Shown here one piece after another: positions 44,816 to 58,427 of a stretch of 64,000 bases of DNA (the stretch's first letter is position 1; every line of letters begins with the position of its first letter). The position numbers and the translations under genes are program-made. The DNA is from Marivita hallyeonensis. GTDB taxonomy: Bacteria > Pseudomonadota > Alphaproteobacteria > Rhodobacterales > Rhodobacteraceae. The notes beneath the pieces were generated by a model. It did no database searches, was not told where the DNA came from, and saw nothing but the letters and a program-made list of their open reading frames with translations. The stretch is from assembly GCF_900129875.1 (NCBI RefSeq), contig NZ_FQXC01000003.1, positions 310,001 through 374,000 of the forward strand, given 5' to 3'.

Positions 44816-46042
44816 TCACTCCACCGCGCGATACCACGCCACGATCTGCCGCCGTGCTTCCTCGTCCATCTGAATGGCATTCGGTGGCGGCATCGCATGA
44901 GACCGCCCGGCCTGTAGATAAACCTGATGCGCATGCCGCGCGACATCGCCTTCGGTCTCCAGATACACACCCTTCGGCGCCCAGCGGATGCCATCCCAAA
45001 CCGGCTCCCGCGCGTGGCACATCGAACAGTTCCCAACCACCGCGTAATACGCGTCTTCGAACCCGTCAGCCGATGCAAAGCGCTCTTCGAACGCCGTCAA
45101 AGGCCGCTCCGACGCCTCGTCATAGCTGGCTGTCGTGCTGAAGGTCGACAGCCACGCGATCGCGATAAAGATCACCGCCGTCGCCGCCCAGGTCCAGTTC
45201 GGGCGCCCTTTGCCCGCGTGCATCGAGTTGAAGTAGTGCCGGATCGTCACCCCCATCAGAAACACGAGCGACGCGATCAGCCATGCGTACTCCGTGCCGA
45301 AAGACAGCGGATAGTGGTTCGACAGCATCAGGAAGATCACCGGTAGCGTCAGATAGTTGTTATGCGTCGACCGCAGCTTGGCGATCTTGCCGTATTTCGG
45401 ATCCGGCGTCCGCCCGGCCTTGAGATCCGCCACGACGATCCGCTGGTTCGGCATGATGATGAAGAACACGTTCGCCGTCATGATCGTCGCGGTGAACGCC
45501 CCCAGATGCAGCAACGCCGCGCGCCCGGTGAACACCTGGTCATAGCCCCACGCCATGACGACGAGCATCACAAACAAGAGCAGCATCAACGCAGTCGGCT
45601 GCTCCCCCAATGGCGACTTGCAGAGAAAGTCGTAGATCAGCCACCCAATCGTCAGCGACAAAGCCGAGATGACAATCCCCTGCCACAGCGCCAGATCGGC
45701 TTTGGTCGGGTCGAGCAGGTACAGCTCTCCCCCGACCCAATAGACGATCATCAACAGCGCCGCGCCCGACAGCCAGGTCGTGTAGCTTTGCCATTTATGC
45801 CAGGTCAGATGCTCGGGCAGGCGATCCGGCGCGACCGTGTATTTGACCGTATGGTAAAATCCGCCGCCATGCACCTCCCACTCCTCGCCGTAAGCGCCTT
45901 TGGGCAGGTCTGGGGCGGATTTCACCATCAGATCAAGCGCAATGAAATAGAACGACGCCCCGATCCACGCCATCGCCGTGATCACATGCAGCCAGCGCAC
46001 CGCGAAAGCGATCCAGTCCCAGAGGATGGCGAAATCATACAT
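44816..46042 (-). CDS. puuD: membrane urate oxidase with cytochrome c domain
   Basis: A 408-residue PuuD protein. About eight helices form the DUF989-type membrane domain (WLHVITAMAWIGASFYF; IMPNQRIVVADLKAG; histidines for cofactor binding). The C-terminal domain has the heme c motif CSMCH (residues 339-343) and a methionine ligand in HAMPPPN. It oxidises urate to 5-hydroxyisourate and passes electrons to the respiratory chain instead of making peroxide. The ATG at 46042 was chosen over an upstream extension rich in arginine. Divergent to a LysR gene. Confidence 0.92.
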   Translation of the reverse strand: MYDFAILWDWIAFAVRWLHVITAMAWIGASFYFIALDLMVKSAPDLPKGAYGEEWEVHGGGFYHTVKYTVAPDRLPEHLTWHKWQSYTTWLSGAALLMIVYWVGGELYLLDPTKADLALWQGIVISALSLTIGWLIYDFLCKSPLGEQPTALMLLLFVMLVVMAWGYDQVFTGRAALLHLGAFTATIMTANVFFIIMPNQRIVVADLKAGRTPDPKYGKIAKLRSTHNNYLTLPVIFLMLSNHYPLSFGTEYAWLIASLVFLMGVTIRHYFNSMHAGKGRPNWTWAATAVIFIAIAWLSTFSTTASYDEASERPLTAFEERFASADGFEDAYYAVVGNCSMCHAREPVWDGIRWAPKGVYLETEGDVARHAHQVYLQAGRSHAMPPPNAIQMDEEARRQIVAWYRAVE

Positions 46043-46140
46043 GGCGTCGGCTCCCGTTCTGCGTCTGCGCCAGACTAGCGACAGGGCTATTCTTCTGCTA
46101 TTCCGATGAAACTCCAAGCTGTATCAAAAATCTGCGAAGA

Positions 46141-47049
46141 ATGAGCTATCTCGACAACATCCGCACCTTCGTGCGTGTCTACGAATTGGGCAGCATGTCT
46201 GCCGCCGGTCGCGATTTGCGCATTTCTCCGGCGGTCACCTCAACCCGGATTGCCCAGCTTGAGGAACATCTCTCCGTCCGGCTCTTCCAGCGCACCACCC
46301 GCAACCTGACGCCCACGGAACAGGGCCGCCTGTTCTATCCCGGCGCGGTGGAGGTGCTCGAAACCGTCGAAGCCGCCGAAGCGCAGGTCACCGATATCAC
46401 CGAAAAGCCGCGCGGCTCGATCTATGTCGCCGCGCCCCTTGGTGTTGGCCGTCGCCTCATCGCGCCGCTGGTGCCGGATTTCATTGCGCAATACCCCGAG
46501 GTCAGCGTTCGGTTACGCCTGACGGATCGTAAGGTCGACCTCACCACCGAAGGCCTCGACCTCGCGGTGTTTCTCGGAGAGCCTGAAGACAGCACCCTGC
46601 GCATCCGCAAGATTGCCGATGTCGACCGCGTCCTCTGCGCGGCGCCGTCCTATATCAAGGCCCATGGAATGCCCGCTTCCGGCGACGACCTGATCGCGCA
46701 GAACCACGAATGCCTGAACCTGCGCTTCCCCGGAGCCACTGAATTCCAATGGCGTTTGCGAACACCCGACGGCCCGAAACGCTTCAAGGTCACGGGCCGC
46801 TTTGAGTCAGACGACGGAGACGTCCTCACCGACTGGGCGCTCGCGGGCCACGGTATCGCCCTGAAGCCCGTTTTCGAAGTCGCCGACCACCTCAGAGACG
46901 GCCGCCTCGCCATCGTCGCCAAACAAACCCCACCCGTCCCAATCCAAATGGCCTGCCTCTTCACCCACCGCCGCAGACAAGACCCGAAAACCCGCCTCTT
47001 CATGGATTTCGTCATCGGCCGCATCGGCAAAAAGGTGAAGAACGCCTGA
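46141..47049 (+). CDS. LysR family transcriptional regulator
   Basis: A 302-residue LysR protein: wHTH with LGSMSAAGRDLRISPAVTST (about residues 16-35), linker helix, and effector domain. The N-terminal style MSYLDNIRTFVRV and late HRRRQDPKTRLFMDF resemble the CrgA/DsdC-like subgroup. It is divergent from puuD with 98 bp between starts, so it is the likely regulator of the urate genes. The effector could be urate or a ureide; inference. Confidence 0.9.
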   Translation: MSYLDNIRTFVRVYELGSMSAAGRDLRISPAVTSTRIAQLEEHLSVRLFQRTTRNLTPTEQGRLFYPGAVEVLETVEAAEAQVTDITEKPRGSIYVAAPLGVGRRLIAPLVPDFIAQYPEVSVRLRLTDRKVDLTTEGLDLAVFLGEPEDSTLRIRKIADVDRVLCAAPSYIKAHGMPASGDDLIAQNHECLNLRFPGATEFQWRLRTPDGPKRFKVTGRFESDDGDVLTDWALAGHGIALKPVFEVADHLRDGRLAIVAKQTPPVPIQMACLFTHRRRQDPKTRLFMDFVIGRIGKKVKNA

Positions 47050-47147
47050 GACCCGGCAAAGCGCCATGCCGTCAGTTCGCGGAGATCGGCAGAACGGTTG
47101 ATGTCTGCTATGCGGGACGAAGCGGTTCTTGCGAAAATGTCGACTAG

Positions 47148-47750
47148 CTAAGTCACAGGTGTATTGAGATCATAGAAGTCAAACAGCTCAGCGGCACGGT
47201 TCAAGGCATCGTTGCTCTCGGAATAGAAGAAAACGTTTCCTTCCCAAAACTCGACGTAATCCGTCGATCCACTTGTGAGCAATTTCGCATCCCAACCGCT
47301 AACACTGAGCAATGTGCAAAGCGCGATCAACGCTTCAGCTTCCGCATTCTGTTCATGCGTTCCAGCCAATTGATCCAACAGGTCATCGGAAAGTGGCGCA
47401 AGAAGTATCGCGGGGTTTTCAACCAGATAGTCGGACGCAAAGCCTTGGCCTAAGATATTGAGAAAATGGCGGTTCTGGGACGGGAAACCATCCGAAAAAT
47501 GATCAATCCATAGTAACCGCTGTGAAGTTTTCGGAAGCCAGTCCGCCATCGACAGAATTACGTTGGAAAGTTGAAAAGGACTTGGATCAAAGAACCGCCC
47601 TATTCGTTCAGAGTCCTCTGCTCCGTCTCCAACTCGGTAAAGGAGTCGCCGGTACCATACGTTCTCCAAGGAAACCGCGAACTTATCTTCGCCTAAGTAC
47701 TTTATCGCCTCAGTGATATTTAGTGATTTCACCGCTTCCTGCTTAGTCAA
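47148..47750 (-). CDS. hypothetical protein, possibly acquired
   Basis: A 200-residue soluble acidic protein with no recognised family (segments WYRRLLYRVGDGAED, DHFSDGFPSQNRHFL, FWEGNVFFYSESNDAL). Its base composition is visibly more AT-rich and its codon use less GC-biased than its neighbours, and it interrupts the urate genes between the LysR gene and uraH. These are signs of recent insertion. It may be an immunity-like or orphan protein, but nothing in the sequence proves it. Confidence 0.6.
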   Translation of the reverse strand: MTKQEAVKSLNITEAIKYLGEDKFAVSLENVWYRRLLYRVGDGAEDSERIGRFFDPSPFQLSNVILSMADWLPKTSQRLLWIDHFSDGFPSQNRHFLNILGQGFASDYLVENPAILLAPLSDDLLDQLAGTHEQNAEAEALIALCTLLSVSGWDAKLLTSGSTDYVEFWEGNVFFYSESNDALNRAAELFDFYDLNTPVT

Positions 47751-47830
47751 TCTGAACGTGACGTGACGATAGGTTCGGTTGGAAAGCTAGTCAATCTGGG
47801 CTCACATCCGACCTAAGCCGCACCTAAACC

Positions 47831-48187
47831 TTAACTCCCCCGATAGGTCGAATACCCGTACGGCGACAGCAAGAGCGGCACGTGGTAGTGCGCCTTTGCG
47901 TCCGACATGCCGAACCGGATTGGCACCTCGTCCAGAAACAGCGGATCGTCTTGTGTCTGTCCGGTGGCGCGCAGGTAGTCGCCTGCGAAGAAGACCAATT
48001 CATACGTCCCGGTCTCAAAGTCATCTACCGGAAGGATCGGGGTGTCGGTTCGACCGTCTTCGTTGGTGACGGCTTCTGCGATCTTCTCGGATGTTGTGCC
48101 GGACAGCCGGGACAGCGCGATCTTCAATCCCGCAGCCGGACAGCCGCGCGCGGTGTCCAGAACATGCGTTGTAAGGTATCCAGCCAT
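47831..48187 (-). CDS. uraH: 5-hydroxyisourate hydrolase
   Basis: A 118-residue transthyretin-like protein with the diagnostic C-terminal tetrapeptide YRGS, the N-terminal catalytic H8 in [11 protein letters not shown] and the DGRTD segment. It hydrolyses 5-hydroxyisourate from PuuD to OHCU. No signal peptide, so it is cytoplasmic. It is transcribed divergently from the puuE-uraD fusion with about 150 bases between starts. Confidence 0.93.
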
Positions 48188-48335
48188 CGCGCCCTCCTGT
48201 GAAGATGTGCCTCTTTATGAAGCCATCGGCGCGAAATGCGCAAACAGGAAGCGGTTTGAGACAGCTTTCGGGATTTCTTGAAAAACGATTTCGATTATTC
48301 GGAATATAGAGATGACCAATCAAAGGGGGCCTTCC
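48188..48335. promoter_or_regulatory. uraH / puuE-uraD divergent control region
   Basis: This 148-bp region holds the promoters for both directions. Its right part is AT-rich (TTGAAAAACGATTTCGATTA) and contains the palindrome TATTC-G-GAATA (48296-48306), 29 bases before the preferred start codon of puuE-uraD. It is a reasonable operator candidate for a purine regulator. Confidence 0.4.
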
Positions 48336-49748
48336 GTGCAAAGATACCCGCGCGACATGACAGGATACGGTGCCACCCCGTCCAAGGCCAACTGGCCAGG
48401 CGGTGCAAAGATCGCCGTGCAGATCGTTCTCAACTACGAAGAGGGTGGCGAGAACAACATCCTTCACGGTGATGCCGCATCAGAGGCGTTTTTGTCCGAG
48501 ATCACCGGCGCGCAACCCTGGCCGGGGCAGCGGCACTGGAACATGGAGTCGATCTACGAATACGGGAGCCGCGCCGGGTTCTGGCGGCTACGCCGGATGA
48601 TGAAAGACTTGCCCGTCACCGTCTACGGCGTCGCCACCGCCCTCGCCCGCGCGCCCGAGCAGGTCGCGGCGATGAAAGACGCAGGCTGGGAGATTGCCTC
48701 GCACGGCCTGAAATGGGTCGAACACAAGGACATGCCCGAAGACGAAGAGCGCGCGCAGATCGTCGAAGCGATCCGCCTGCACACCGAGGTCACGGGCGCC
48801 CCCCCGAAGGGTTGGTACACGGGCCGCTGCTCCAACAACACCGTGCGGCTCGTCGCAGAACAGGGCGGGTTCGACTACGTCGCCGACAGCTATGCCGACG
48901 ATCTGCCCTACTGGATGACGTTTGGCGACAGGCATCAATTGGTCGTGCCCTACACGCTCGACTGCAATGACATGCGCTTCGGCATTCAGGCCGGGTTCAC
49001 CAATGGCGACCAGTTCGAGAGCTACCTCAAGGACAGCTTCGACACGCTATATACGGAAGGCGCTCAGGGCAGCCCCAAGATGCTTTCCATCGGTCTGCAC
49101 TGCCGGCTGATCGGTCGCCCTGGACGCGCTGCCGCGCTGAAACGGGTGCTGGATTACATGGCCGGGCACGACGGCGTCTGGTTCGCCACACGCCAGCAGA
49201 TCGCACAGCACTGGGCGAATGAACATCCCGCACCGTCGGCACGTCGCCCCTCCGAGATGTCCACGGACCAGTTCATCGCCGAATTCGGCGGCATCTTCGA
49301 ACACTCGCCGTGGATCGCGGAACGCGCCTGCGCCTATGAGACCGGCCCAACCCACGACACTGCTCGCGGCGTGCATAGCTTGCTCTGCCGCGCGTTCCGC
49401 AGCGCGTCCGACGAAGAAAGGCTCGGTGTACTCAATGCCCACCCCGACCTTGCTGGAAAGCTCGCCGCCGCTGGCCGCCTCACTGCCGAGTCGACCGCCG
49501 AACAGGCCGGCGCGGGCCTCGACATGCTCACCGATGACGAACGCACCACTTTCCAAAGACTCAACGCCGACTATGTCGCGCGCCACGGCTTTCCGTTCAT
49601 CATCGCGGTGAAGGACAACACCAAAGCCAGCATCCTCGACGCCTTCCGCCGTCGCATCGACAACGACCGCGACACCGAATTTGCGGAAGCTTGCCGTCAG
49701 GTTGAACGCATCGCCGAACTCCGCTTGATCGAGAAGCTTGGCGCATGA
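48336..49748 (+). CDS. puuE-uraD: fusion of PuuE allantoinase and UraD OHCU decarboxylase
   Basis: A 470-residue protein joining two pathway enzymes. Residues about 1-295 are a PuuE-type allantoinase of the polysaccharide deacetylase fold (MQRYPRDMTGYGATPSKANW start; WPGGAKIAVQIVLNYEEGGE). Residues about 310-470 are UraD (LNAHPDLAGKLA and HGFPFIIAVK). UraD decarboxylates OHCU to (S)-allantoin, which PuuE opens to allantoate. The GTG at 48336 follows AAAGGGGG at ideal spacing and gives the family N-terminus; ATG at 48312 has no ribosome site. The decarboxylase product feeds the other domain directly. Confidence 0.9.
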   Translation: MQRYPRDMTGYGATPSKANWPGGAKIAVQIVLNYEEGGENNILHGDAASEAFLSEITGAQPWPGQRHWNMESIYEYGSRAGFWRLRRMMKDLPVTVYGVATALARAPEQVAAMKDAGWEIASHGLKWVEHKDMPEDEERAQIVEAIRLHTEVTGAPPKGWYTGRCSNNTVRLVAEQGGFDYVADSYADDLPYWMTFGDRHQLVVPYTLDCNDMRFGIQAGFTNGDQFESYLKDSFDTLYTEGAQGSPKMLSIGLHCRLIGRPGRAAALKRVLDYMAGHDGVWFATRQQIAQHWANEHPAPSARRPSEMSTDQFIAEFGGIFEHSPWIAERACAYETGPTHDTARGVHSLLCRAFRSASDEERLGVLNAHPDLAGKLAAAGRLTAESTAEQAGAGLDMLTDDERTTFQRLNADYVARHGFPFIIAVKDNTKASILDAFRRRIDNDRDTEFAEACRQVERIAELRLIEKLGA

Positions 49749-50230
49749 GACAGATCACCATCCAGCCGATCACTAAAGACGCCTTCGCCCCGTTTGGTGA
49801 CATCATCGACAGCACAGGCGATCCTGACAAGATCATCAACCAGGGCAAATGCGGCCGCTACCACGACCGCGCCACGCTCGATTTCAGCGATGGCCGCGCC
49901 GGGCTCAGCCTCTTCAAGGCAGAACTGCGCAGCTTACCCCTCACTCTCGACATGATGGAACGGCATCCCGAAGGCAGCCAATGCTTTGTGCCGATGAGCG
50001 ACACGCCCTTTCTCGTGATCGTCGCGCCTGACGCGGACGGTCAACCCGGAACTCCGCTCGCCTTCCGCACCGAACCGGGACAGGCGGTCAATTTTCACCG
50101 CAACACCTGGCACGGCGTCCTGACCCCGATCGCGGGCACCGGCCTCTTCGCCGTCATCGACCGGATCGGCGACGGGCCGAACCTGCAGGAATACTGGTTC
50201 GACACACCTTACGAGGTCATCGACCCCTAA
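49745..50230 (+). CDS. allA: ureidoglycolate lyase
   Basis: A 161-residue AllA protein: ITIQPITKDAFAPFGDIID start, the HPEGSQCFVPMSDTPF core and the NFHRNTWHGVLTPI segment with the expected histidines. It splits (S)-ureidoglycolate to glyoxylate and urea, the step that links purine breakdown to the downstream bhc genes. It overlaps the puuE-uraD stop by 4 bases. Confidence 0.93.
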   Translation: MRQITIQPITKDAFAPFGDIIDSTGDPDKIINQGKCGRYHDRATLDFSDGRAGLSLFKAELRSLPLTLDMMERHPEGSQCFVPMSDTPFLVIVAPDADGQPGTPLAFRTEPGQAVNFHRNTWHGVLTPIAGTGLFAVIDRIGDGPNLQEYWFDTPYEVIDP

Positions 50231-50283
50231 AAAAAAACAACGCCCGGCAAGAGGCGCGCCACACATAAAAGAGGGACACAAAT

Positions 50284-51720
50284 ATGTCAGCCACATCCAT
50301 CGGCACGCCGGAGCAACTCCGCGATCCGAACTATACACCGCCTATCGCCAAGGCCGTGCCTTTGGGCATCCAGCACGTTCTGGCGATGTTCGTCTCCAAC
50401 GTCACACCCGCGATCATCGTCTGCGGCGCAGCGGGCTTCGGGTTTGGGTCGAACAGCCCGGACTTCCCGCAGATGATCTACATGATCCAGATGTCGATGT
50501 TCTTTGCGGGCATCGCCACGCTGTTCCAGACCATCGGAGTGGGTCCGGTCGGCGCGCGGCTTCCTATCGTACAAGGCACCAGCTTTGCGTTTATCCCGAT
50601 CATGATCCCATTGGTTGCGGGCAAGGGCGTGGACGCCATCGCGGTGCTGATGGGCGGCATCGTCGTGGGTGGCTTGTTCCACGCGTTCCTTGGCCTCTTC
50701 ATCGGCAAACTACGCTTTGCCTTGCCACCACTTGTCACCGGCCTTGTCGTCACCATGATCGGCCTCGCACTGGTCAAAGTCGGCATCCAATATGCAGCAG
50801 GCGGTGTCCCGGCGATGAGCCAGCCTGAATACGGCTCGCTCCTCAACTGGACGATGGCGGGCACCGTGATCCTCGTGACACTTGGTCTCAAGTTCTTCAC
50901 CAAAGGCATGTTGTCCGTCTCTGCCGTCCTCATCGGCTTGCTGGTCGGCTACGGCGTGGCGTTCATGCTGGGCGAAGTGAACCTCGGCAACGTGGGTCGC
51001 GCAGCGCCCTTCGCCCTGCCCAACCCACTCCACTTCGGCATTGAGTTCTCGGTCGCCGCGATCATCGGTTTCTGCCTGATGTCCTTTGTCTCAGCCGTCG
51101 AAACCGTCGGCGACGTAAGCGGCATTACCAAGGGCGGCGCGGGACGCGAAGCGACAGACAAAGAGATCGAAGGCGCAACCTACGCAGACGGGATCGGCAC
51201 GGCCATTTCCGGATTCTTCGGCGCACTCCCCAACACGTCGTTCAGCCAGAACGTCGGCCTCATCGCCATGACAGGCGTCATGTCGCGCGGCGTCGTCACA
51301 ATCGGCGCGCTATTCCTGATCCTCTGCGGCCTGATCCCCAAGGTCGGCGCAGTGATCTCGTCGGTTCCCATCGAAGTCCTCGGCGGCGGCGTGATCGTCA
51401 TGTTCGGCATGGTCGTCGCAGCGGGCATCTCGATGCTGTCGGACGTCGACTGGAACCGCCGCAACATGGTGATCTTCGCGATTGCGCTGTCTCTGGGCCT
51501 TGGCTTGCAGCTCGAACCAAACGCGCTCCAGTACCTGCCCCAAACGCTGAAAGTGCTGGCCACATCAGGCATCCTGCCAGCCGCCCTGATCGCCATTGTG
51601 CTGAACCTGATCCTGCCACAAGAGCTGTCGGGTGAGGCGACTGAAGAAGTCTCTGGCGGCATGTCCGGCCACGGCACAGGTCTGAAAGGTAAGGAAGAGG
51701 CCAGCGCCGCAAACGTGTAA
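50284..51720 (+). CDS. NCS2 family purine/urate permease
   Basis: A 478-residue nucleobase-ascorbate transporter with about 14 helices. The family signature QNxGxxxxTG appears as QNVGLIAMTG (about residues 322-331), with the upstream ALPNTSFS segment. It imports xanthine or urate with protons or sodium. AGAGGG precedes the ATG. Placed directly after allA and followed by a good terminator, it is the last gene of the uptake and breakdown operon. Urate or xanthine is likelier than uracil from context. Confidence 0.9.
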   Translation: MSATSIGTPEQLRDPNYTPPIAKAVPLGIQHVLAMFVSNVTPAIIVCGAAGFGFGSNSPDFPQMIYMIQMSMFFAGIATLFQTIGVGPVGARLPIVQGTSFAFIPIMIPLVAGKGVDAIAVLMGGIVVGGLFHAFLGLFIGKLRFALPPLVTGLVVTMIGLALVKVGIQYAAGGVPAMSQPEYGSLLNWTMAGTVILVTLGLKFFTKGMLSVSAVLIGLLVGYGVAFMLGEVNLGNVGRAAPFALPNPLHFGIEFSVAAIIGFCLMSFVSAVETVGDVSGITKGGAGREATDKEIEGATYADGIGTAISGFFGALPNTSFSQNVGLIAMTGVMSRGVVTIGALFLILCGLIPKVGAVISSVPIEVLGGGVIVMFGMVVAAGISMLSDVDWNRRNMVIFAIALSLGLGLQLEPNALQYLPQTLKVLATSGILPAALIAIVLNLILPQELSGEATEEVSGGMSGHGTGLKGKEEASAANV

Positions 51721-51748
51721 CGCGCAAGGTCCTTACAAAAACTTAGAA

Positions 51749-51777
51749 GCGTCCGGCCCTCCCGCCGGGCGCTTTTT
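51749..51777 (+). terminator. intrinsic terminator of the puuE-allA-permease operon
   Basis: GCGTCCGGC (51749-51757) and GCCGGGCGC (51764-51772) form a 9-bp stem with one G-T pair around loop CCTCCC, followed by TTTTT (51773-51777). Confidence 0.85.
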
Positions 51778-51884
51778 CGTGTGGGGCGTGCAGTTCCCGG
51801 CAGCCAACAAACACGTGATGACAATTCCCGCCGGATGGGCCCAACCGCGTGGTAGACTGGCTCATCCAACACGGAGAATCGTCA

Positions 51885-52799
51885 ATGAACGACCTTACGC
51901 CACAACGGCGCCTGACCGCCAAAGACTTCGATCAGGAGCTTCTCGACCTCTACGACTACTACGCGCACGGCAAAATCTCGAAGCGCGAATTTCTGGACCA
52001 AGCTGGCAAATGGGCCGTCGGTGGCCTGACCGCAGCCGCGATCCTTGGCACGCTGTCGCCCAACTATGCGCTGGCCCAGCAAGTCGCCGACGATGACCCC
52101 GATATCATGGGCGAAGACATTGTCTACCCAAGCCCGGACGGCACCGGCGATATCACGGCTTATCTGGTCCGTCCGACCAACATCGACCCGGACCGCCCAC
52201 CCGCCGCCGTTCTGGTGGTTCACGAAAATCGTGGTCTGAACCCCTATATCCGCGACGTCGTGCGCCGCCTTGCCAAAGCGGGCTTCATCGCGATGGGTCC
52301 CGATGGGCTGTCATCGCTTGGCGGCTACCCGGGAACCGATGACGAGGGTCGCGAGATGCAGCGCACACTGGATCGCGACGCGCTTCTGAACGACTTCTTC
52401 GCCGGGTTCGAATACCTGCAGGCGCTGGACGGAACCAACGGCAAAGTCGGCGCAACCGGCTTCTGCTATGGCGGCGGCGTTGTGAACAAGCTTGCCGTGG
52501 CCTACCCGGAAATGGCTGCAGGTGTGCCGTTCTACGGAGCCTCGGTCGATGCCGATCAGGTCGCCCAGATCGAAGCGCCGCTGATGATCCAGATGGCCGC
52601 CTTGGATCAACGTATCAACGCCATGTGGCCTGAATTCCACAAGGCGCTTGAGGAGAACGACAAGCGCTATCAGGCACACATCTATCCGGGTGTGAACCAC
52701 GGATTTCACAACGACACCACACCGCGCTACGACGAAGAAGCTGCGATGCTGGCTGAGGAACGCATGGTGGCGTGGTTCCGGACCTATATGGCGGGTTAA
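51885..52799 (+). CDS. exported dienelactone hydrolase family protein (YghX-like)
   Basis: A 304-residue alpha/beta hydrolase of the dienelactone hydrolase family. It has a long N-terminus with a Tat-like stretch (SKREFLDQAGKWAVGG, about residues 38-53) and a hydrophobic segment ending in ALAQQ. The nucleophile is cysteine in ATGFCYGGGVV, with the aspartate and histidine in ALDQR and PGVNHGFHN. ACGGAGAA precedes the ATG. The substrate is unknown; it is followed by a bidirectional terminator and is probably unconnected with the purine genes. Confidence 0.85.
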   Translation: MNDLTPQRRLTAKDFDQELLDLYDYYAHGKISKREFLDQAGKWAVGGLTAAAILGTLSPNYALAQQVADDDPDIMGEDIVYPSPDGTGDITAYLVRPTNIDPDRPPAAVLVVHENRGLNPYIRDVVRRLAKAGFIAMGPDGLSSLGGYPGTDDEGREMQRTLDRDALLNDFFAGFEYLQALDGTNGKVGATGFCYGGGVVNKLAVAYPEMAAGVPFYGASVDADQVAQIEAPLMIQMAALDQRINAMWPEFHKALEENDKRYQAHIYPGVNHGFHNDTTPRYDEEAAMLAEERMVAWFRTYMAG

Positions 52800-52821
52800 G
52801 CGCCTACCTGATCGACGCACG

Positions 52822-52849
52822 AAAACGGGGCCACGCAGCCCCCGTTTTT
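52822..52849. terminator. bidirectional terminator between the hydrolase and bhcD
   Basis: AAAACGGGG (52822-52830) pairs with CCCCGTTTT (52840-52848), 9-bp perfect stem with A and T runs on both sides, so it can work on both strands. Confidence 0.85.
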
Positions 52850-52870
52850 GTCTCATTTGCAACGCGTGTC

Positions 52871-53836
52871 TTAGAAGTCGACCTCAATCGCGACACCGCG
52901 CTCAATCGCCAGTTCAACCACCTTGGACGCAACGGCCAAATCCTGAAGTCCAACACCGGTGCCATCAAACAACGTGATATCGCTATCCGACGTCCGCCCC
53001 GGATGCGCGCCATTGATCACGGCACCAATCTCGATCACATCGCTCTCCGCGATCAGACCCGACCCAACCGCGTGCTGCGCCTCACCGATGCTGATAGATT
53101 GCGCGACCTCGTCGGTGAACACCTTAGCCTTCGCCAACAGCGCCGCCTCAACCTCCTGCTTGCCTTTGGTATCGGTGCCCATGCAGGCGATATGCGTGCC
53201 CTCGCTCACGTGATCTGCCATGAGCGACGGCGAAAACGCCGACGTGATCGAGATGATCACATCCGCCTCTCGCATCCCCTCAAGCTCCACCGCTTCGAAC
53301 GGCAAACCGGCCTCCTGAGCGACCTTCTCGATATTGGGCAGCATCTCGGGGTGGTAATTCCAGCCAATCACCTTCTCGAACGACCGCTGCTCCAGCGCCG
53401 CGCGCAGCTGGAACGTCGCCTGATGCCCCGCTCCGATCATTCCCATGACCTTCGCATCCTCGCGCGCCAGATGCTTGATCGATACCGAAGACGCCGCCGC
53501 CGTCCGCAGCGCGGTCAAGAGGTTGCCCCCCACCATCGCATGCACCCGGCCCGTGTCGGGATCGAACAGGAACACCGTCGACTGGTGATTGATCAGCCCG
53601 CGCTTCTCAAGGTTGTGCGGCCAGTACCCGCCCGCCTTCAGGCCCAAAGACCCGCCGACCCGGTCAAACCCGCCTTTGAAGCCATACAAAGCGTCCTCGT
53701 GCCCGATCGCTTCCCGCACGACAGGAAAGTTGTAGGCATCCTTTGACGCCATCGCAGCAAACACCTGCTCCACCGCTTCAAACGATGCCTCGCGCGACAC
53801 GAGATCGGCGATCTTGGCTTCAGGAACGATATACAT
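52871..53836 (-). CDS. bhcD: iminosuccinate reductase of the beta-hydroxyaspartate cycle
   Basis: A 321-residue ornithine cyclodeaminase/mu-crystallin-family reductase with NAD-binding GMIGAGHQATFQL and the GGNLLTALRTAAASS segment. In the BHAC, BhcD reduces iminosuccinate to aspartate and so regenerates the amino donor. It is the last gene of the bhcABCD order on the minus strand, after a 139-bp gap that contains a composite terminator repeat. Outside this context it would be called only ornithine cyclodeaminase-like. Confidence 0.9.
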   Translation of the reverse strand: MYIVPEAKIADLVSREASFEAVEQVFAAMASKDAYNFPVVREAIGHEDALYGFKGGFDRVGGSLGLKAGGYWPHNLEKRGLINHQSTVFLFDPDTGRVHAMVGGNLLTALRTAAASSVSIKHLAREDAKVMGMIGAGHQATFQLRAALEQRSFEKVIGWNYHPEMLPNIEKVAQEAGLPFEAVELEGMREADVIISITSAFSPSLMADHVSEGTHIACMGTDTKGKQEVEAALLAKAKVFTDEVAQSISIGEAQHAVGSGLIAESDVIEIGAVINGAHPGRTSDSDITLFDGTGVGLQDLAVASKVVELAIERGVAIEVDF

Positions 53837-53888
53837 GGGCCACCCCTTCGCAAAAACGGCGCGCCACCCCCGATGCGCGCCGTCCTGT

Positions 53889-53967
53889 TCTTCTCTGGTT
53901 CAAAAATATCCCGGGGGGTTTGGGGGGCTGGCCCCCCAATCGGTCGGATCGGGCGCAGCCCGATCCG
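53889..53967 (-). repeat. composite 3' terminator repeat, copy B
   Basis: On the plus strand a leader TTCTCTGGTTCAAAAATA (53891-53908) and G-rich run precede TTGGGGGGC/GCCCCCCAA (53920-53939) and CGGATCGGGC/GCCCGATCCG (53945-53967, loop GCA). The last hairpin ends 9 bases from the bhcC stop, exactly as in copy A beside the RpiR gene. Read on the minus strand it is a tandem-hairpin terminator after bhcC. Confidence 0.75.
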
Positions 53968-53975
53968 AACCCAAA

Positions 53976-55139
53976 TCAATACGCGCGACCGCGGGCCGAC
54001 ACCGGCCATACGGTTTCAACGACACCGTTGCGCACGCCGACATACCAGTCATGCACGTTGCAGGTCGGATCACAGTGGCCCGGCACCAGCTTCAGCTTGT
54101 CATTGACCTTCAGTACACCCTGCGGGTCCATGACCACACCATGCTCGTCCGAGCACTTCACATATTCCACGTCATCGCGCCCGTAGATCACCGGCAGACC
54201 GCTGTCGACCGACTGCGCCTTCAGGCCTGCATCGACAATCGCCTTGTCGGCCTTCGCGTGGCTCATGACGGAGGTCAGGATGAACAGCGCGTTCTCCCAC
54301 TCGCCCTGATCGATCCGCTTGCCGTCCTTGTCGAGGATGCGCCCGTAATCGGCGTCCATGAACGCGTAAGATCCGCACTGCAATTCGTTGTACACGCCCG
54401 AGTTCGACTCGAAGTAATAGGACCCGGTGCCGCCACCGCCGACGATGTCACACTCGATGCCTTCCGCCGCCAGCGTATCCACGGCGTCCTTCACCTGGGC
54501 CACAGCGATGTCGATCTTCGCCTTGCGCTCGTCATACGAATCCATGTGCTGCATCGCACCCTGATAGGCCTGGATACCGGCAAACTTCAGGCCATCGGCG
54601 GCATCAATCGCCTTGGCGATCTCGACCACCTCAGGCGTCGTCGTCACACCGCACCGCCCAGCGCCGCAGTCGATCTCGACGAGGCACTCGATCTGCGTGC
54701 CATGCTTCACAGCGGCCGCCGACAGATCCGCCACGTTGGCCAGATCGTCCACACAGCAGATCGTGCGCGCACCCAGTTTGGGCATGCGTGCCAGACGGTC
54801 GATCTTGGCGGGTTCACGCACCTGATTGGACACCAACACATCCTTGATGCCACCGCGGGCAAAGACCTCGGCCTCGCTCACCTTCTGGCAGCACACACCA
54901 CAGGCACCGCCCAGTTCGACCTGCAGCAGCGCGACATCGACCGACTTGTGCATCTTGCCGTGCACCCGGTGCCGCATGCCATGCGCCTTGGCGTAGTCAC
55001 CCATCTTCTTAATGTTGCGCTCCAGCGCGTCGAGGTCGAGCACCAGAGCCGGTGTCTGCACCTCGTCTTCAAGCATGCCCGGCTTTGCCGGGATATCGAA
55101 GCCAACTTCGTAATCGTCGAAAAAGCTCATGTCTTTCAT
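53976..55139 (-). CDS. bhcC: beta-hydroxyaspartate aldolase
   Basis: A 387-residue D-threonine aldolase/alanine racemase-fold PLP enzyme. The PLP lysine is K62 in RHRVHGKMHKS, and C-terminal metal ligands lie in VPGHCDPTCNVHDWYVG. BhcC condenses glyoxylate and glycine to erythro-beta-hydroxyaspartate. The start at 55139 (MKDMSFFDDY) is preceded by GGAGAG; the frame upstream is arginine-rich and unlikely. It is separated from bhcB by 118 bases with two hairpins. Confidence 0.92.
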   Translation of the reverse strand: MKDMSFFDDYEVGFDIPAKPGMLEDEVQTPALVLDLDALERNIKKMGDYAKAHGMRHRVHGKMHKSVDVALLQVELGGACGVCCQKVSEAEVFARGGIKDVLVSNQVREPAKIDRLARMPKLGARTICCVDDLANVADLSAAAVKHGTQIECLVEIDCGAGRCGVTTTPEVVEIAKAIDAADGLKFAGIQAYQGAMQHMDSYDERKAKIDIAVAQVKDAVDTLAAEGIECDIVGGGGTGSYYFESNSGVYNELQCGSYAFMDADYGRILDKDGKRIDQGEWENALFILTSVMSHAKADKAIVDAGLKAQSVDSGLPVIYGRDDVEYVKCSDEHGVVMDPQGVLKVNDKLKLVPGHCDPTCNVHDWYVGVRNGVVETVWPVSARGRAY

Positions 55140-55172
55140 TGGATCTCTCCGTGTTTTGGGGCGGTGCCGTAG

Positions 55173-55238
55173 GGTGCGTGATGCACGCACCGCACGGGAT
55201 CATATTTCGTTTGTTATGCGAAGTTTCCTATCGGAAAC
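55173..55238 (-). repeat. hairpins between bhcB and bhcC
   Basis: GGTGCGTG (55173-55180) pairs with CACGCACC (55184-55191) over a 3-base loop, and GTTTCC (55223-55228) with GGAAAC (55233-55238). The first, in the context GTAGGGTGCGTG, looks like a dispersed intergenic hairpin repeat seen in many proteobacteria. It may tune the relative amounts of BhcB and BhcC. Confidence 0.55.
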
Positions 55239-55257
55239 AGGCGGTCTTGAAAAGGGC

Positions 55258-56226
55258 TTAGCGCATCATCCATGGCAATTTGTCGAGGTCGACATTGCCG
55301 CCGGTGACGATCACGCCAACCCGCTTGCCCGCAAAGGCGTCTTTGTTCTTGAGGATGATCGCCAGCGGAACGGCACATGACGGCTCCATCACGATGCGCA
55401 GGTACTTCCACGTGATCTTCATAGCGTCGATGATCTCGTCCTCGGTCGCCGTCATGATGTCGCTGACATGGTTCGACACGAAGTGCCAGGTCAGATCCTT
55501 CAGCGGCACTTTGAGACCGTCGGCAATCGTCTCTGGCGCGTCATCGGCGATGATGTGTCCCGCTTTGAAGCTGCGGTAGGCGTCATCCGCCTGCTCGGGC
55601 TCCGCCGCGATGATTTTCACCTCCGGCGCCAGTGTGGACAACGTCAGGCACGTGCCCGAGATCATCCCGCCACCGCCGATCGGCGCGACCATCATGTCAA
55701 GACCGTCGGTCTGCTCCATGAACTCCTTGGAGCAGGTTCCCTGACCGGCGATCACGCGCGGGTCGTTGTACGGATGCACGAATTCCCCACCCGTCTTGGC
55801 TTGCACTTCCGCGAACACGGCTTCGCGCGACGAGGTAGACGGCTCACATTCCGTGATCGTCCCGCCGTACCGCTTGACCGCATCTTTCTTCGCCTGCGGC
55901 GCCGTGCGCGGCATGACCACGTTACACGGGATGCCCCGGCGACCGGCGGCGTAAGACAGGCACAAGGCGTGGTTGCCGGACGAATGCGTGCAGACGCCCT
56001 TTTCGGCCATCTCATCACTCAGACCAAACACCGCGTTCGATCCGCCGCGCACCTTGAAGGCACCCGGTTCCTGAAAGTTCTCGCATTTGAAAAACAGCTC
56101 TGCACCTGTCAGCTCATTCAGATACTGGGACTGCAGAACCGGCGTGCGGTTGATATGCGGCTTGATGCGCTCATGCGCCTCCAGCATGTCATCATAGGTC
56201 GGGATTGTCAGCGCCATGTCTTTCAT
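55258..56226 (-). CDS. bhcB: beta-hydroxyaspartate dehydratase
   Basis: A 322-residue fold-type II PLP enzyme of the serine/threonine dehydratase family. The PLP lysine is K58 in EPGAFKVRGGSN, with the phosphate loop GGGGMISG. BhcB eliminates water from beta-hydroxyaspartate to give iminosuccinate, which BhcD reduces. Its start overlaps the bhcA stop by four bases (ATGA). Confidence 0.92.
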   Translation of the reverse strand: MKDMALTIPTYDDMLEAHERIKPHINRTPVLQSQYLNELTGAELFFKCENFQEPGAFKVRGGSNAVFGLSDEMAEKGVCTHSSGNHALCLSYAAGRRGIPCNVVMPRTAPQAKKDAVKRYGGTITECEPSTSSREAVFAEVQAKTGGEFVHPYNDPRVIAGQGTCSKEFMEQTDGLDMMVAPIGGGGMISGTCLTLSTLAPEVKIIAAEPEQADDAYRSFKAGHIIADDAPETIADGLKVPLKDLTWHFVSNHVSDIMTATEDEIIDAMKITWKYLRIVMEPSCAVPLAIILKNKDAFAGKRVGVIVTGGNVDLDKLPWMMR

Positions 56227-57416
56227 TGTGCAGCCACCTTCTGTTCGATCTCCGAACCATAACGATAGTATTCCTGCGCCGCCGCGACACCCGAGCCCAG
56301 CTTGATATCAAGCCCGAGGTCCACCATGCACATCTCGGCGGTGGCAATCCCGGACAGCGTCATCACTTCGGTCAGGCTACCAAGATGGCCGATGCGGAAC
56401 ACCTTGCCAGCCACATCGCCAAGACCCACACCGAAGGCCACGCCATAGGTGCTGGCCGCGTGTGTCACGATGTCGGTCGCGTTGAAGCCGTTCGGCGTGC
56501 GCACCGCGCTGATCGTGTCGGAATAGACGTCCGGGCTCTCTGCGCAAAGCTCAAGGCCCCACGCCCAAACCGCGCGACGAACACCCTCTGCGATGCGGTG
56601 GTGACGGGCGAACACGGTCTCCAGCCCCTCATCCATCAGCATCCGGCAGGCCTCGTTCAGACCGTTCATCAAACCAACGGCGGGCGTATACGGGTACGCG
56701 CTGTTCGCGTAGCCTTTCATCATGTCGTGCACATCAAAGAACGTCCGATGCAGCCCGGCCGTCTTCGTCGCATCCATGGCCTTTTCGCTGAACCCGACAA
56801 TCGCCAGACCGGGCGGCAGCATGAAACCCTTCTGCGATCCGGTCACAGCCACGTCCACGCCCCACGCGTCAAAGCGGAAATCCATCGACGCGATGGAGCT
56901 GACCCCGTCCACCATGAGCATCGCCGGATGGCCCGCCGCGTCCATCGCATGGCGAATTGCACCGATATCGGACACGACGCCCGTGGCCGTTTCGTTATGC
57001 GTGGCCAGAACCGCTTTGATGCGGTGTGCCGTGTCGCCCGTGAGGATCTCCTCGAACCGATCCGCCGGGATGCCCTGACCCCAGGCCACATCTACGATGA
57101 TCAGTTCCAGCCCGTGCCGTTCGCACATGTCGATCCAGCGGTGCGAGAACATGCCGTTGCGCGCCACGAGTACCGTATCACCCTCACTCAGAGTGTTGGT
57201 GATGGCGGTTTCCCATCCGCCCGTGCCGGTCGACGGAAAAATGAAGACCTCGGCACTGGTGCTTTTCAGGATCGCCTGAACCGCCTTACGCGCCGGATGC
57301 AGGATGGTGCCGAACAACGGCGACCGGTGATCGATCGTCGGCATATCGCATGCTTTGCGCAGCGATTCCGGGATGTTTGTGGGTCCAGGAATGAAAACTG
57401 GGTTCTGAAAGCTCAT
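56223..57416 (-). CDS. bhcA: aspartate-glyoxylate aminotransferase
   Basis: A 397-residue class V aminotransferase like alanine-glyoxylate/serine-pyruvate aminotransferases. The PLP lysine is K196 in TGSQKGFMLPPG, and the start is NPVFIPGPTNIPESLRKA. BhcA aminates glyoxylate to glycine with aspartate as donor, yielding oxaloacetate, the net product of the cycle. First gene of bhcABCD, downstream of a distinctly AT-rich control region. The usual regulator gene bhcR (IclR family) is not in the window. Confidence 0.93.
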   Translation of the reverse strand: MSFQNPVFIPGPTNIPESLRKACDMPTIDHRSPLFGTILHPARKAVQAILKSTSAEVFIFPSTGTGGWETAITNTLSEGDTVLVARNGMFSHRWIDMCERHGLELIIVDVAWGQGIPADRFEEILTGDTAHRIKAVLATHNETATGVVSDIGAIRHAMDAAGHPAMLMVDGVSSIASMDFRFDAWGVDVAVTGSQKGFMLPPGLAIVGFSEKAMDATKTAGLHRTFFDVHDMMKGYANSAYPYTPAVGLMNGLNEACRMLMDEGLETVFARHHRIAEGVRRAVWAWGLELCAESPDVYSDTISAVRTPNGFNATDIVTHAASTYGVAFGVGLGDVAGKVFRIGHLGSLTEVMTLSGIATAEMCMVDLGLDIKLGSGVAAAQEYYRYGSEIEQKVAAQ

Positions 57417-57602
57417 GTGCGGGTCCTCCCATTTGCAGACAACCTAAAGCTTTCGAGAGCAGCGCTCAATTTTTTCGAAATTATTTTTCATTTTCCAGAG
57501 ACAGAAAATATTTATTTATTTCAAAGAGTTTATTTTTTCACTATATGAAAGATTTTTTTGAATACCCGCGTATACGATAATTTTGGCCCGAATCCCTGCG
57601 GT
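57417..57602 (-). promoter_or_regulatory. AT-rich bhc control region
   Basis: These 186 bases before bhcA are far more AT-rich than their surroundings and run in long A/T tracts. They hold the inverted repeat ATTTTC-N8-GAAAAT (57490-57509) and a further TTTTTCGAAATTATTTTTC tract at 57470-57488. This is the probable promoter/operator of bhcABCD, where a BhcR-like IclR regulator would bind. Confidence 0.5.
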
Positions 57603-58427
57603 TCAACGGCCCAAGGTCAGCGGCATATGGCGGTTCACATCCTTGTACAGAAGATACCGAAATTTGCCCGGCCCGCCCGCGTAACACGCTTGCGGGCAGA
57701 ACGCGCGCAGCCACATGTAATCGCCCGCCTCCACCTCGACCCAATCCTGGTTCAACCGGTATGCCGCCTTGCCTTCAAGCACGTATAGTCCGTGCTCCAT
57801 CACATGCGTCTCAAGAAACGGGATCACCGCACCGGGCTCAAACGTGACAACCGTCACATGCATGTCATGACGCAGGTCGCTCGGATCCACAAAACGCGTC
57901 GTCGCCCATTTGCCATCCGTCCCCGGCATCGGCGTCGGCGCAACGTCTGCGTCGCTTGAGACGATCACGTCGGGCTGATCCAGCCCGTCCACCGCCTGAT
58001 AAGCCTTCCTGATCCAATGAAATCGCGCCGCATCCGATCCCCGATTGCGCAAGGTCCAACCGGATTGCGGCGGCAGATAGGCATAGCCTCCGGCTGTCAT
58101 CTCATGCGTTTGACCATCAACCGTAAGGCTCACCTTCCCCTCGACGACAAACAGCACCCCCTCAGCGGTCGGATCCGTTTCGGCGCGGTCCGACCCGCCA
58201 TCCGTCGCGACCTCCATGATGTAATGCGAAAACGTCTCGGCAAAACCGGTCATCGGTCGCGCAATGACCCACAAGCGCGTCCCTTCCCAGAACGGCAGAA
58301 AGCTCGTGGTGATGTCCCGCATCGTGCCTTTGGGGATCACGGCATAAGCCTCGGTGAACATCGCCCGATCCGTCAGCAACTGCTCCTGCCCCGGATGGCC
58401 GCCCTTGGGCGCGTAATAAGACGTCAT
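57603..58427 (-). CDS. allE: (S)-ureidoglycine aminohydrolase
   Basis: A 274-residue bicupin (cupin segments at about residues 75-125 and 190-250) of the UGlyAH/AllE family; metal-binding residues lie near HVMEHGLYVLEGKAAYRL. It converts (S)-ureidoglycine to (S)-ureidoglycolate with release of ammonia, which AllA then splits. It normally partners with allantoate amidohydrolase (AllC), which is not in the window. It lies upstream of bhcA on the same strand. Confidence 0.9.
   Translation of the reverse strand: MTSYYAPKGGHPGQEQLLTDRAMFTEAYAVIPKGTMRDITTSFLPFWEGTRLWVIARPMTGFAETFSHYIMEVATDGGSDRAETDPTAEGVLFVVEGKVSLTVDGQTHEMTAGGYAYLPPQSGWTLRNRGSDAARFHWIRKAYQAVDGLDQPDVIVSSDADVAPTPMPGTDGKWATTRFVDPSDLRHDMHVTVVTFEPGAVIPFLETHVMEHGLYVLEGKAAYRLNQDWVEVEAGDYMWLRAFCPQACYAGGPGKFRYLLYKDVNRHMPLTLGR

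Follow-up and report, generated by a model that had tools for sequence, protein, structure and literature searches.

Why should genes for urate breakdown stand beside a complete set of genes for the beta-hydroxyaspartate cycle (bhcABCD)? The question is raised by a 13.6-kb locus, positions 44816-58427 of a 64,000-nucleotide stretch of the Marivita hallyeonensis genome (NCBI RefSeq assembly GCF_900129875.1, contig NZ_FQXC01000003.1, positions 310,001 to 374,000), which we refer to as the window. From the genes of the window and the gene neighbourhoods of its relatives, we consider it likely that the locus is one catabolic unit, handing purine-derived glyoxylate to the beta-hydroxyaspartate cycle.

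Purine and bhc genes in one cluster

We listed the open reading frames (ORFs) of the locus and scanned their products against the NCBIfam and Pfam profiles at curated cut-offs; the assembly as a whole comprises 4.19 Mb in 20 contigs. The profile scans placed puuD, the LysR gene, uraH, puuE-uraD, allA, the NCS2 permease gene, bhcD-C-B-A, and allE where an earlier reading of this DNA (the original prediction) had put them. Every named protein exceeded a curated NCBIfam or Pfam cut-off except the LysR-type regulator, which was assigned at the level of its family. The two gene sets had been described as fused in one locus. They are indeed clustered within 13.6 kb, but the only gene fusion observed was puuE-uraD, where the PuuE and UraD matches fall in one single ORF. 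The purine and bhc genes are as follows, with profile scores and cut-offs in brackets.

44816..46117, minus strand: puuD, membrane urate oxidase (PF06181, 444 bits, cut-off 27)
47831..48187, minus strand: uraH, 5-hydroxyisourate (HIU) hydrolase (TIGR02962, 134 bits, cut-off 87)
48312..49748, plus strand: puuE-uraD fusion, allantoinase and 2-oxo-4-hydroxy-4-carboxy-5-ureidoimidazoline (OHCU) decarboxylase (TIGR03212, 512 bits, cut-off 425; TIGR03164, 207 bits, cut-off 96)
49745..50230, plus strand: allA, ureidoglycolate lyase (NF002952, 281 bits, cut-off 260; PDB 2bdr)
50284..51720, plus strand: NCS2 xanthine/urate-type permease (TIGR03173, NCS2/PbuX, 428 bits, cut-off 414)
52871..53836, minus strand: bhcD, iminosuccinate reductase (NF045643, 592 bits, cut-off 500; PDB 6rqa, E 7e-137)
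53976..55190, minus strand: bhcC, D-3-hydroxyaspartate aldolase (NF045642, 757 bits, cut-off 690; PDB 6qkb, E 1e-208)
55258..56226, minus strand: bhcB, beta-hydroxyaspartate dehydratase (NF045641, 587 bits, cut-off 550)
56223..57416, minus strand: bhcA, L-aspartate--glyoxylate aminotransferase (NF045640, 733 bits, cut-off 650)
57603..58427, minus strand: allE, (S)-ureidoglycine aminohydrolase (NF008376, 528 bits, cut-off 338)

In the PDB, BhcC and BhcD are matched best by structures titled D-3-hydroxyaspartate aldolase (6qkb) and iminosuccinate reductase (6rqa); the PDB relatives of BhcA and BhcB are all more distant. The closest BhcC proteins in named genomes, mostly from Marivita, are 94-95% identical (records of the genome itself may be excluded). 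Alignment to the PDB entry and the matches of relatives make codon 18 of its ORF the probable start of bhcC; the true start of puuD is likely at codon 26. PuuD was recognized by Pfam, with no match in the NCBIfam scan. AllE also exceeded the model for a bifunctional allantoicase (NF040771, 504 bits against a cut-off of 350), and its best PDB match, 1sq4, is titled glyoxylate-induced protein.

A 4-bp overlap joins bhcA to bhcB, and another joins puuE-uraD to allA. These overlaps suggest two operons, a putative bhcABCD operon on the minus strand and a putative puuE-uraD/allA/permease operon on the plus strand. The pairs uraH/puuE and puuD/lysR are divergent, and bhcA is preceded at a distance of 186 bp by allE, which has the same orientation.

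Recurrence of the linkage among relatives

We evaluated the conservation of this neighbourhood in 390 genomes of the order, of which 225 encode a BhcC above cut-off. Matches of any strength occurred in 111 genera, and 66 genera are represented here by one locus each, namely the first place per genus among approximately 155 listed BhcC places, so the lowest-scoring BhcC proteins are under-represented. Each locus reached approximately 9.4 kb to either side of bhcC and was annotated by tblastn with the window's proteins; contig ends shortened six of the 66. A locus was called linked if its flanks held at least one of puuD, uraH, puuE-uraD, allA, ncs2, and allE.

By this definition, 32 of the 66 genera were linked, with at least two ureide genes in 28 and at least three in 26. 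Taken singly, allE was near bhc in 29 genera, allA in 26, and puuE-uraD in 25. Seven further genera with a lower-scoring BhcC added four linked cases, two of them by allE alone, giving 36 of 73 in total. The puu/all-bhc neighbourhood, whose conservation in relatives the original prediction had singled out for checking, is thus kept widely rather than rarely. A separate set of 80 named loci had at least one ureide gene in 36; 15 of these loci are under 15 kb, and the set was kept unpooled since its species overlap with those of the 66-genus loci. By simple arithmetic, a cluster of approximately 8 kb placed at random in a 4.2-Mb genome has less than a 1% chance of lying 9.4 kb or nearer to a chosen gene, and the linkage exceeds this expectation, though the genera share ancestry.

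The arrangement of the linked genes varies. In some loci allE is convergent with bhcR upstream of the bhc genes and the rest lies downstream, in others the whole unit lies downstream behind a gene of the glyceraldehyde-3-phosphate dehydrogenase (GAPDH) family, and in yet others it is upstream or inverted. Outside the family, 15 loci holding a bhc set were scored, three of them from one genus and two from one genome, and linkage was found in three of the 15 (L186, L198, and L201). Loci with only bhcC or bhcC-bhcD (L190, L191, L194, and L202) were excluded from this count, and L192, where an NCS2 gene (47%) is present but allA, allE, and puuE are missing, was scored as unlinked.

A tree of concatenated BhcABCD sequences (79 rows, 36 linked and 43 unlinked, midpoint root) was used to follow the linkage label. 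At least 18 changes of the label are needed, 15 of them forced by starred branches, where shuffled labels need 26 on average; one or two of 500 shuffles were as low as 18. With fewer changes than under shuffling, linkage is partly inherited, yet it has been made or lost many times, the counts not separating gain from loss. In one clade none of the 12 rows is linked, and in the window's clade 24 of 31 are. The named-locus survey, the 66-genus survey, and the tree together rule out the linkage as the oddity of a single genome.

Purine clusters were also viewed from their own side, in 39 loci picked as being away from bhc (20 from genomes without a listed BhcC match and 19 from others). Three of the latter (L241, L251, and L255) carry bhc genes after all and are included in the neighbour counts. 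The most frequent neighbours were the purine genes themselves, and other recurrent clusters appeared in at most 10 loci. The sole annotated one among these is the GAPDH-family gene, near purine clusters in five of the 39 loci. The same kind of gene occurs in 16 of the 66 genus loci, mostly adjoining bhcD (for example L098:7247-8230, whose product scores 342.6 bits, below the GAPDH-I cut-off of 367.2).

A displaced BhcR and its predicted operators

Within the window's bhc locus, no IclR-type bhcR gene divergent from bhcA is present. An ortholog was found on another contig (C9) beside metF (401 bits, cut-off 350), 55-68% identical to its nearest bhc-adjacent BhcR proteins. This displaced bhcR (L180:9355-11294) overlaps the convergent metF by 4 bp at the bhcR 3' end, and a weak BhcR-like site (score 17.9) lies near its likely start. 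Among the 66 genera, bhcR stands at bhcA in 62, the exceptions being L096, L099, L109, and the same-genus L131. It is also missing at bhcA in the same-genus L155 and in all eight Marivita-type named loci searched, some of which are short. We use Marivita-type for the window, same-genus genomes, and named loci at least 86% identical over the locus, some of them labelled by family only. In L109 (6.2-7.2 kb, oriented; genome G052, another genus), allE likewise lies immediately upstream of bhcA without bhcR.

A palindrome, TTTTTGAAAAnnnTTTTCAAAAA, was derived from the bhcR-bhcA intergenic regions of other genomes. The resulting position weight matrix (PWM) was built from 63 sites scoring at least 9 of 12, out of 81 training regions that include some wrong stretches. 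At a permissive cut it matched the 64-kb window exactly three times (0.4 expected), twice before bhcA and once between uraH and puuE. These sites and the regulator gene encoded in the locus are listed here.

57472..57494, no strand assigned: predicted BhcR-like operator upstream of bhcA (PWM score 30.5; matching site in eight Marivita-type loci)
57542..57564, no strand assigned: second predicted BhcR-like operator, 70 bp further upstream (PWM score 25.3)
48275..48297, no strand assigned: predicted BhcR-like operator in the uraH/puuE divergent promoter (PWM score 26.9; suggestive)
46141..47049, plus strand: LysR-type regulator, divergent from puuD (family level only, no listed cut-off passed)

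The 70-bp spacing of the two bhcA-upstream sites is kept in seven of the eight Marivita-type loci with such a site. In the same-genus genome G299, strong BhcR-like sites occur at both the bhcA and puuE promoters (L131:7126-7148, score 35.4, and L131:16308-16330, score 26.9). Strict matches in the 66 genus loci numbered 82, of which 79 were upstream of bhcA and spread over 58 loci, a count with some circularity, since training regions had been drawn from most of these loci, though not from the window or L131. Of the other three strict matches, two fell in the promoter between uraH and puuE. A single Markov control run on the 66 loci produced one match.

How far the purine-promoter site extends was judged at a threshold of 18.5, with rows regrouped after L241, L251, and L255 had been found to carry bhc. 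Seven of nine Marivita-type rows reached this score, and the remaining two were weak. Outside this group the counts speak against a shared operator: the score was reached in only two of 27 bhc-adjacent rows (one being L131, also among the nine), one of 14 unlinked rows, none of 15 rows lacking the cycle, and not in the one outside row. A shuffle test gave p < 0.05 at the same promoter for seven of nine Marivita-type, 12 of 27 bhc-adjacent, three of 14 unlinked, and one of 15 cycle-lacking rows. A BhcR site conserved at the purine promoter throughout the family is thus unsupported beyond Marivita and a few others. Also unfavourable is that a half-site of the uraH/puuE operator, possibly a -35 box, resembles sequence in genomes lacking the cycle, and because of this the site is graded as only suggestive of a BhcR operator.

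Of the alternatives we weighed, the one that survives best concerns this site alone: it could be a chance extension of a promoter element, with the purine genes obeying only their own LysR-type regulator. We regard this as an even call. The half-site in cycle-lacking genomes and the rarity of strict matches at the uraH/puuE promoter outside Marivita fit such an origin, but two of the three strict matches away from bhcA fall in this short promoter, and most Marivita-type rows score above threshold there. A lysR gene of 45% identity or more was present in 17 of the 66 genus loci. We infer that in Marivita the displaced BhcR may co-regulate both gene sets.

A proposed route from urate to oxaloacetate

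Six steps of the urate-to-glyoxylate pathway are encoded in the locus: urate oxidase, HIU hydrolase, OHCU decarboxylase, allantoinase, ureidoglycine aminohydrolase, and ureidoglycolate lyase. A gene for allantoate amidohydrolase is not in the 44816-58427 locus, and a candidate is encoded elsewhere in the genome (C13:717473, 695 bits, cut-off 452). In the unit we propose, the NCS2 permease would take up xanthine or urate, PuuD, UraH, and UraD would turn urate into allantoin, releasing one CO2, and PuuE would open allantoin to allantoate. The candidate amidohydrolase from outside the locus (or a bifunctional AllE in its place) together with AllE would then yield ureidoglycolate, which AllA would split into glyoxylate and urea. 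BhcA, BhcC, BhcB, and BhcD would finally join two glyoxylate with one NADH to give oxaloacetate. The cycle would in this way clear a reactive by-product of nitrogen scavenging and send its two carbons back to the tricarboxylic acid (TCA) cycle. Flux from purines into the cycle is what we infer from gene content, family membership, recurrent linkage, and the lack of a glyoxylate carboligase (Gcl) match above cut-off.

The stoichiometry bears on how this route is to be described. Of the five carbons of urate, OHCU decarboxylation and the amidohydrolase step each release one as CO2, and a third leaves as urea. Two of the five arrive at glyoxylate, and for this reason two urates are needed per oxaloacetate. 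The beta-hydroxyaspartate cycle conserves carbon compared with the glycerate route; urate is still no carbon-rich feed.

With regard to other sinks, Gcl was found above cut-off in none of 60 sampled relatives (30 with no or a weak BhcC match and 30 with a strong one). Gcl as a sink in this genome was rejected, the best match (347 bits, cut-off 711) being an acetolactate synthase. With regard to other sources, no match to the glycolate oxidase proteins GlcD or GlcE was found in any of the 66 genus loci, using this genome's own proteins as queries at 30% identity (GlcF was not among the queries).

Several observations weigh against the proposed unit. Linkage was not seen in 34 of the 66 genera, four of them with flanks shortened by contig ends. 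Genes for GlcD/GlcE-like proteins lie on the same contig approximately 80 kb from bhc (C13:282-284 kb), their products scoring under the NCBIfam equivalog cut-offs, and outside the family glcD/glcE are near bhc genes in two of 19 loci (L185, and L202 with its bhcC-bhcD). Malate synthase G is encoded in the genome as a further glyoxylate sink, which rules out the cycle as the sole one. The AllA family (PF04115) occurs in 382 of 390 genomes compared with the 225 that have BhcC above cut-off; ureide breakdown is therefore probably near-universal in the sampled order, and purine breakdown does not need the cycle, running without it in many genomes. Finally, with only two fifths of urate carbon reaching glyoxylate by textbook stoichiometry, the carbon-efficient route from urate that had been proposed for this locus is too strong a description. 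Purine ureides had also been suggested as a main glyoxylate source, for which gene order alone is no basis for judging.

The better surviving of the two alternatives at this level is that the purine genes serve mainly nitrogen supply, the cycle being a detoxifying outlet for glyoxylate with a small carbon gain. Urate carries four nitrogens and delivers only two carbons as glyoxylate, and malate synthase could drain glyoxylate too, but the end product of the cycle is an anabolic C4 acid. We find this plausible though somewhat short of probable, and it differs from the catabolic unit proposed above in emphasis, the mechanism being alike. Mere neighbourhood, in which a near-universal purine unit came to lie beside bhc genes through shared ancestry while the cycle in practice serves glycolate, can draw on the wide AllA family, the GlcD/GlcE-like genes of this genome, the clustering of linked loci on the tree, and the glycolate focus of the published cycle work examined (PMC11323563), but it is improbable given a linkage that is scattered over the tree, persists in upstream, downstream, and inverted forms, and recurs outside the family, with glcD and glcE linked in none of the 66 loci.

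The catabolic unit can be extended to a joint proposal: that a large Rhodobacteraceae clade keeps the cycle chiefly as an outlet for purine carbon rather than glycolate carbon, and that in Marivita a single palindromic operator lets the off-locus BhcR drive both the bhc genes and the operons of uraH and puuE-uraD-allA-permease. We put this forward tentatively and, taken as a whole, consider it rather unlikely. The beta-hydroxyaspartate cycle has been described as a marine bacterial use of algal glycolate. If in approximately half of the cycle-bearing genera its genes adjoin those for the breakdown of urate and allantoin, dissolved purines would be a second natural feed, and a true purine feed would tie nitrogen scavenging to carbon-conserving growth.

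Variant bhc loci and remaining genes

We also considered whether genomes with two bhc copies divide into purine and glycolate specialists, and found no clean split among 60 candidate genomes (those with at least two matches in the BhcC survey, or that looked likely). Two BhcC matches at E <= 1e-150 were present in six of the 60. G002 has both copies beside allE, one with the entire purine set. G061 has one linked full set (L147) and one lacking bhcA, and G122 and G207 each have one unlinked full set and one lacking bhcA. An unlinked full set accompanies a lone bhcC in G097, both copies are cut short in G167, and G527, from outside the family, has one linked and one unlinked set.

A bhc-type locus without bhcA was seen at L206:7127-13031, L210:7009-12950, and L213:7014-12260. 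Its order is a gene for an FAD D-amino-acid-dehydrogenase-like protein (in L213 only the C-terminal half is in one ORF), bhcB, bhcC, bhcD, a cycloisomerase-family gene, and then benABCD-type benzoate genes, named in L206 and with homologs in L210 and L213. From this gene content the pathway may be linear, with glycine and glyoxylate supplied from elsewhere and no need for the aminotransferase. In L099:1159-8683, where no bhcA was found, genes for an ABC transporter ATPase and a solute-binding protein precede bhcBCD.

Two genes of the Marivita locus remain to be listed, neither of them named in the original prediction. The hydrolase gene separates the permease gene from bhcD, and the 200-residue ORF had no match in the NCBIfam or Pfam scans.

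51849..52799, plus strand: YghX-family hydrolase (NF041440, 487 bits, cut-off 460)
47148..47750, minus strand: 200-residue ORF between lysR and uraH, family unassigned

Comparison with known systems

The purine link had been put forward as a distinct physiological role for the cycle. No description of the bhc-purine gene pairing was found in the literature searched, a partial search that leaves room for an earlier one; the general idea is not new, as the introduction of PMC11323563 already names purines and allantoin as yielding glyoxylate. Both pathways are known separately, and within the literature searched their recurrent genomic pairing may be new.

The bhcABCD set and bhcR of Paracoccus denitrificans are the closest counterpart of the cycle genes. 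As there, all four enzymes are encoded in Marivita, each above its NCBIfam equivalog cut-off, and a BhcR ortholog is in the genome. Unlike there, the Marivita bhcR is on another contig instead of beside bhcA. The four Marivita genes are contiguous on one strand and flanked by purine genes. In the published work examined, the bhc set is tied to glycolate and glyoxylate, and glyoxylate raises bhc promoter activity through BhcR in P. denitrificans (PMC11323563).

The allantoin-glyoxylate genes of E. coli (allA and gcl, with the repressor AllR) resemble a possible Marivita arrangement in placing ureide breakdown and glyoxylate assimilation under one glyoxylate-sensing IclR-type regulator. In E. 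coli gcl stands beside the allantoin genes, in the position that the cycle would hold here. The sinks differ, being the beta-hydroxyaspartate cycle in Marivita and Gcl with the glycerate pathway in E. coli, and Marivita adds the urate genes puuD, uraH, and uraD. That a single regulator governs the E. coli allantoin genes and gcl is stated in PMC11323563, and a purine route with glyoxylate as its carbon product is described for SAR11 in PMC11698098.

The bacterial urate pathway of PuuD, UraH, UraD, PuuE, AllE, and AllA is matched by the same enzymes in the Marivita locus, including the fused PuuE-UraD and, as urate oxidase, the membrane protein PuuD. The Marivita locus differs in that its candidate allantoate amidohydrolase is encoded elsewhere, and in adding to this pathway a cycle for the assimilation of glyoxylate.

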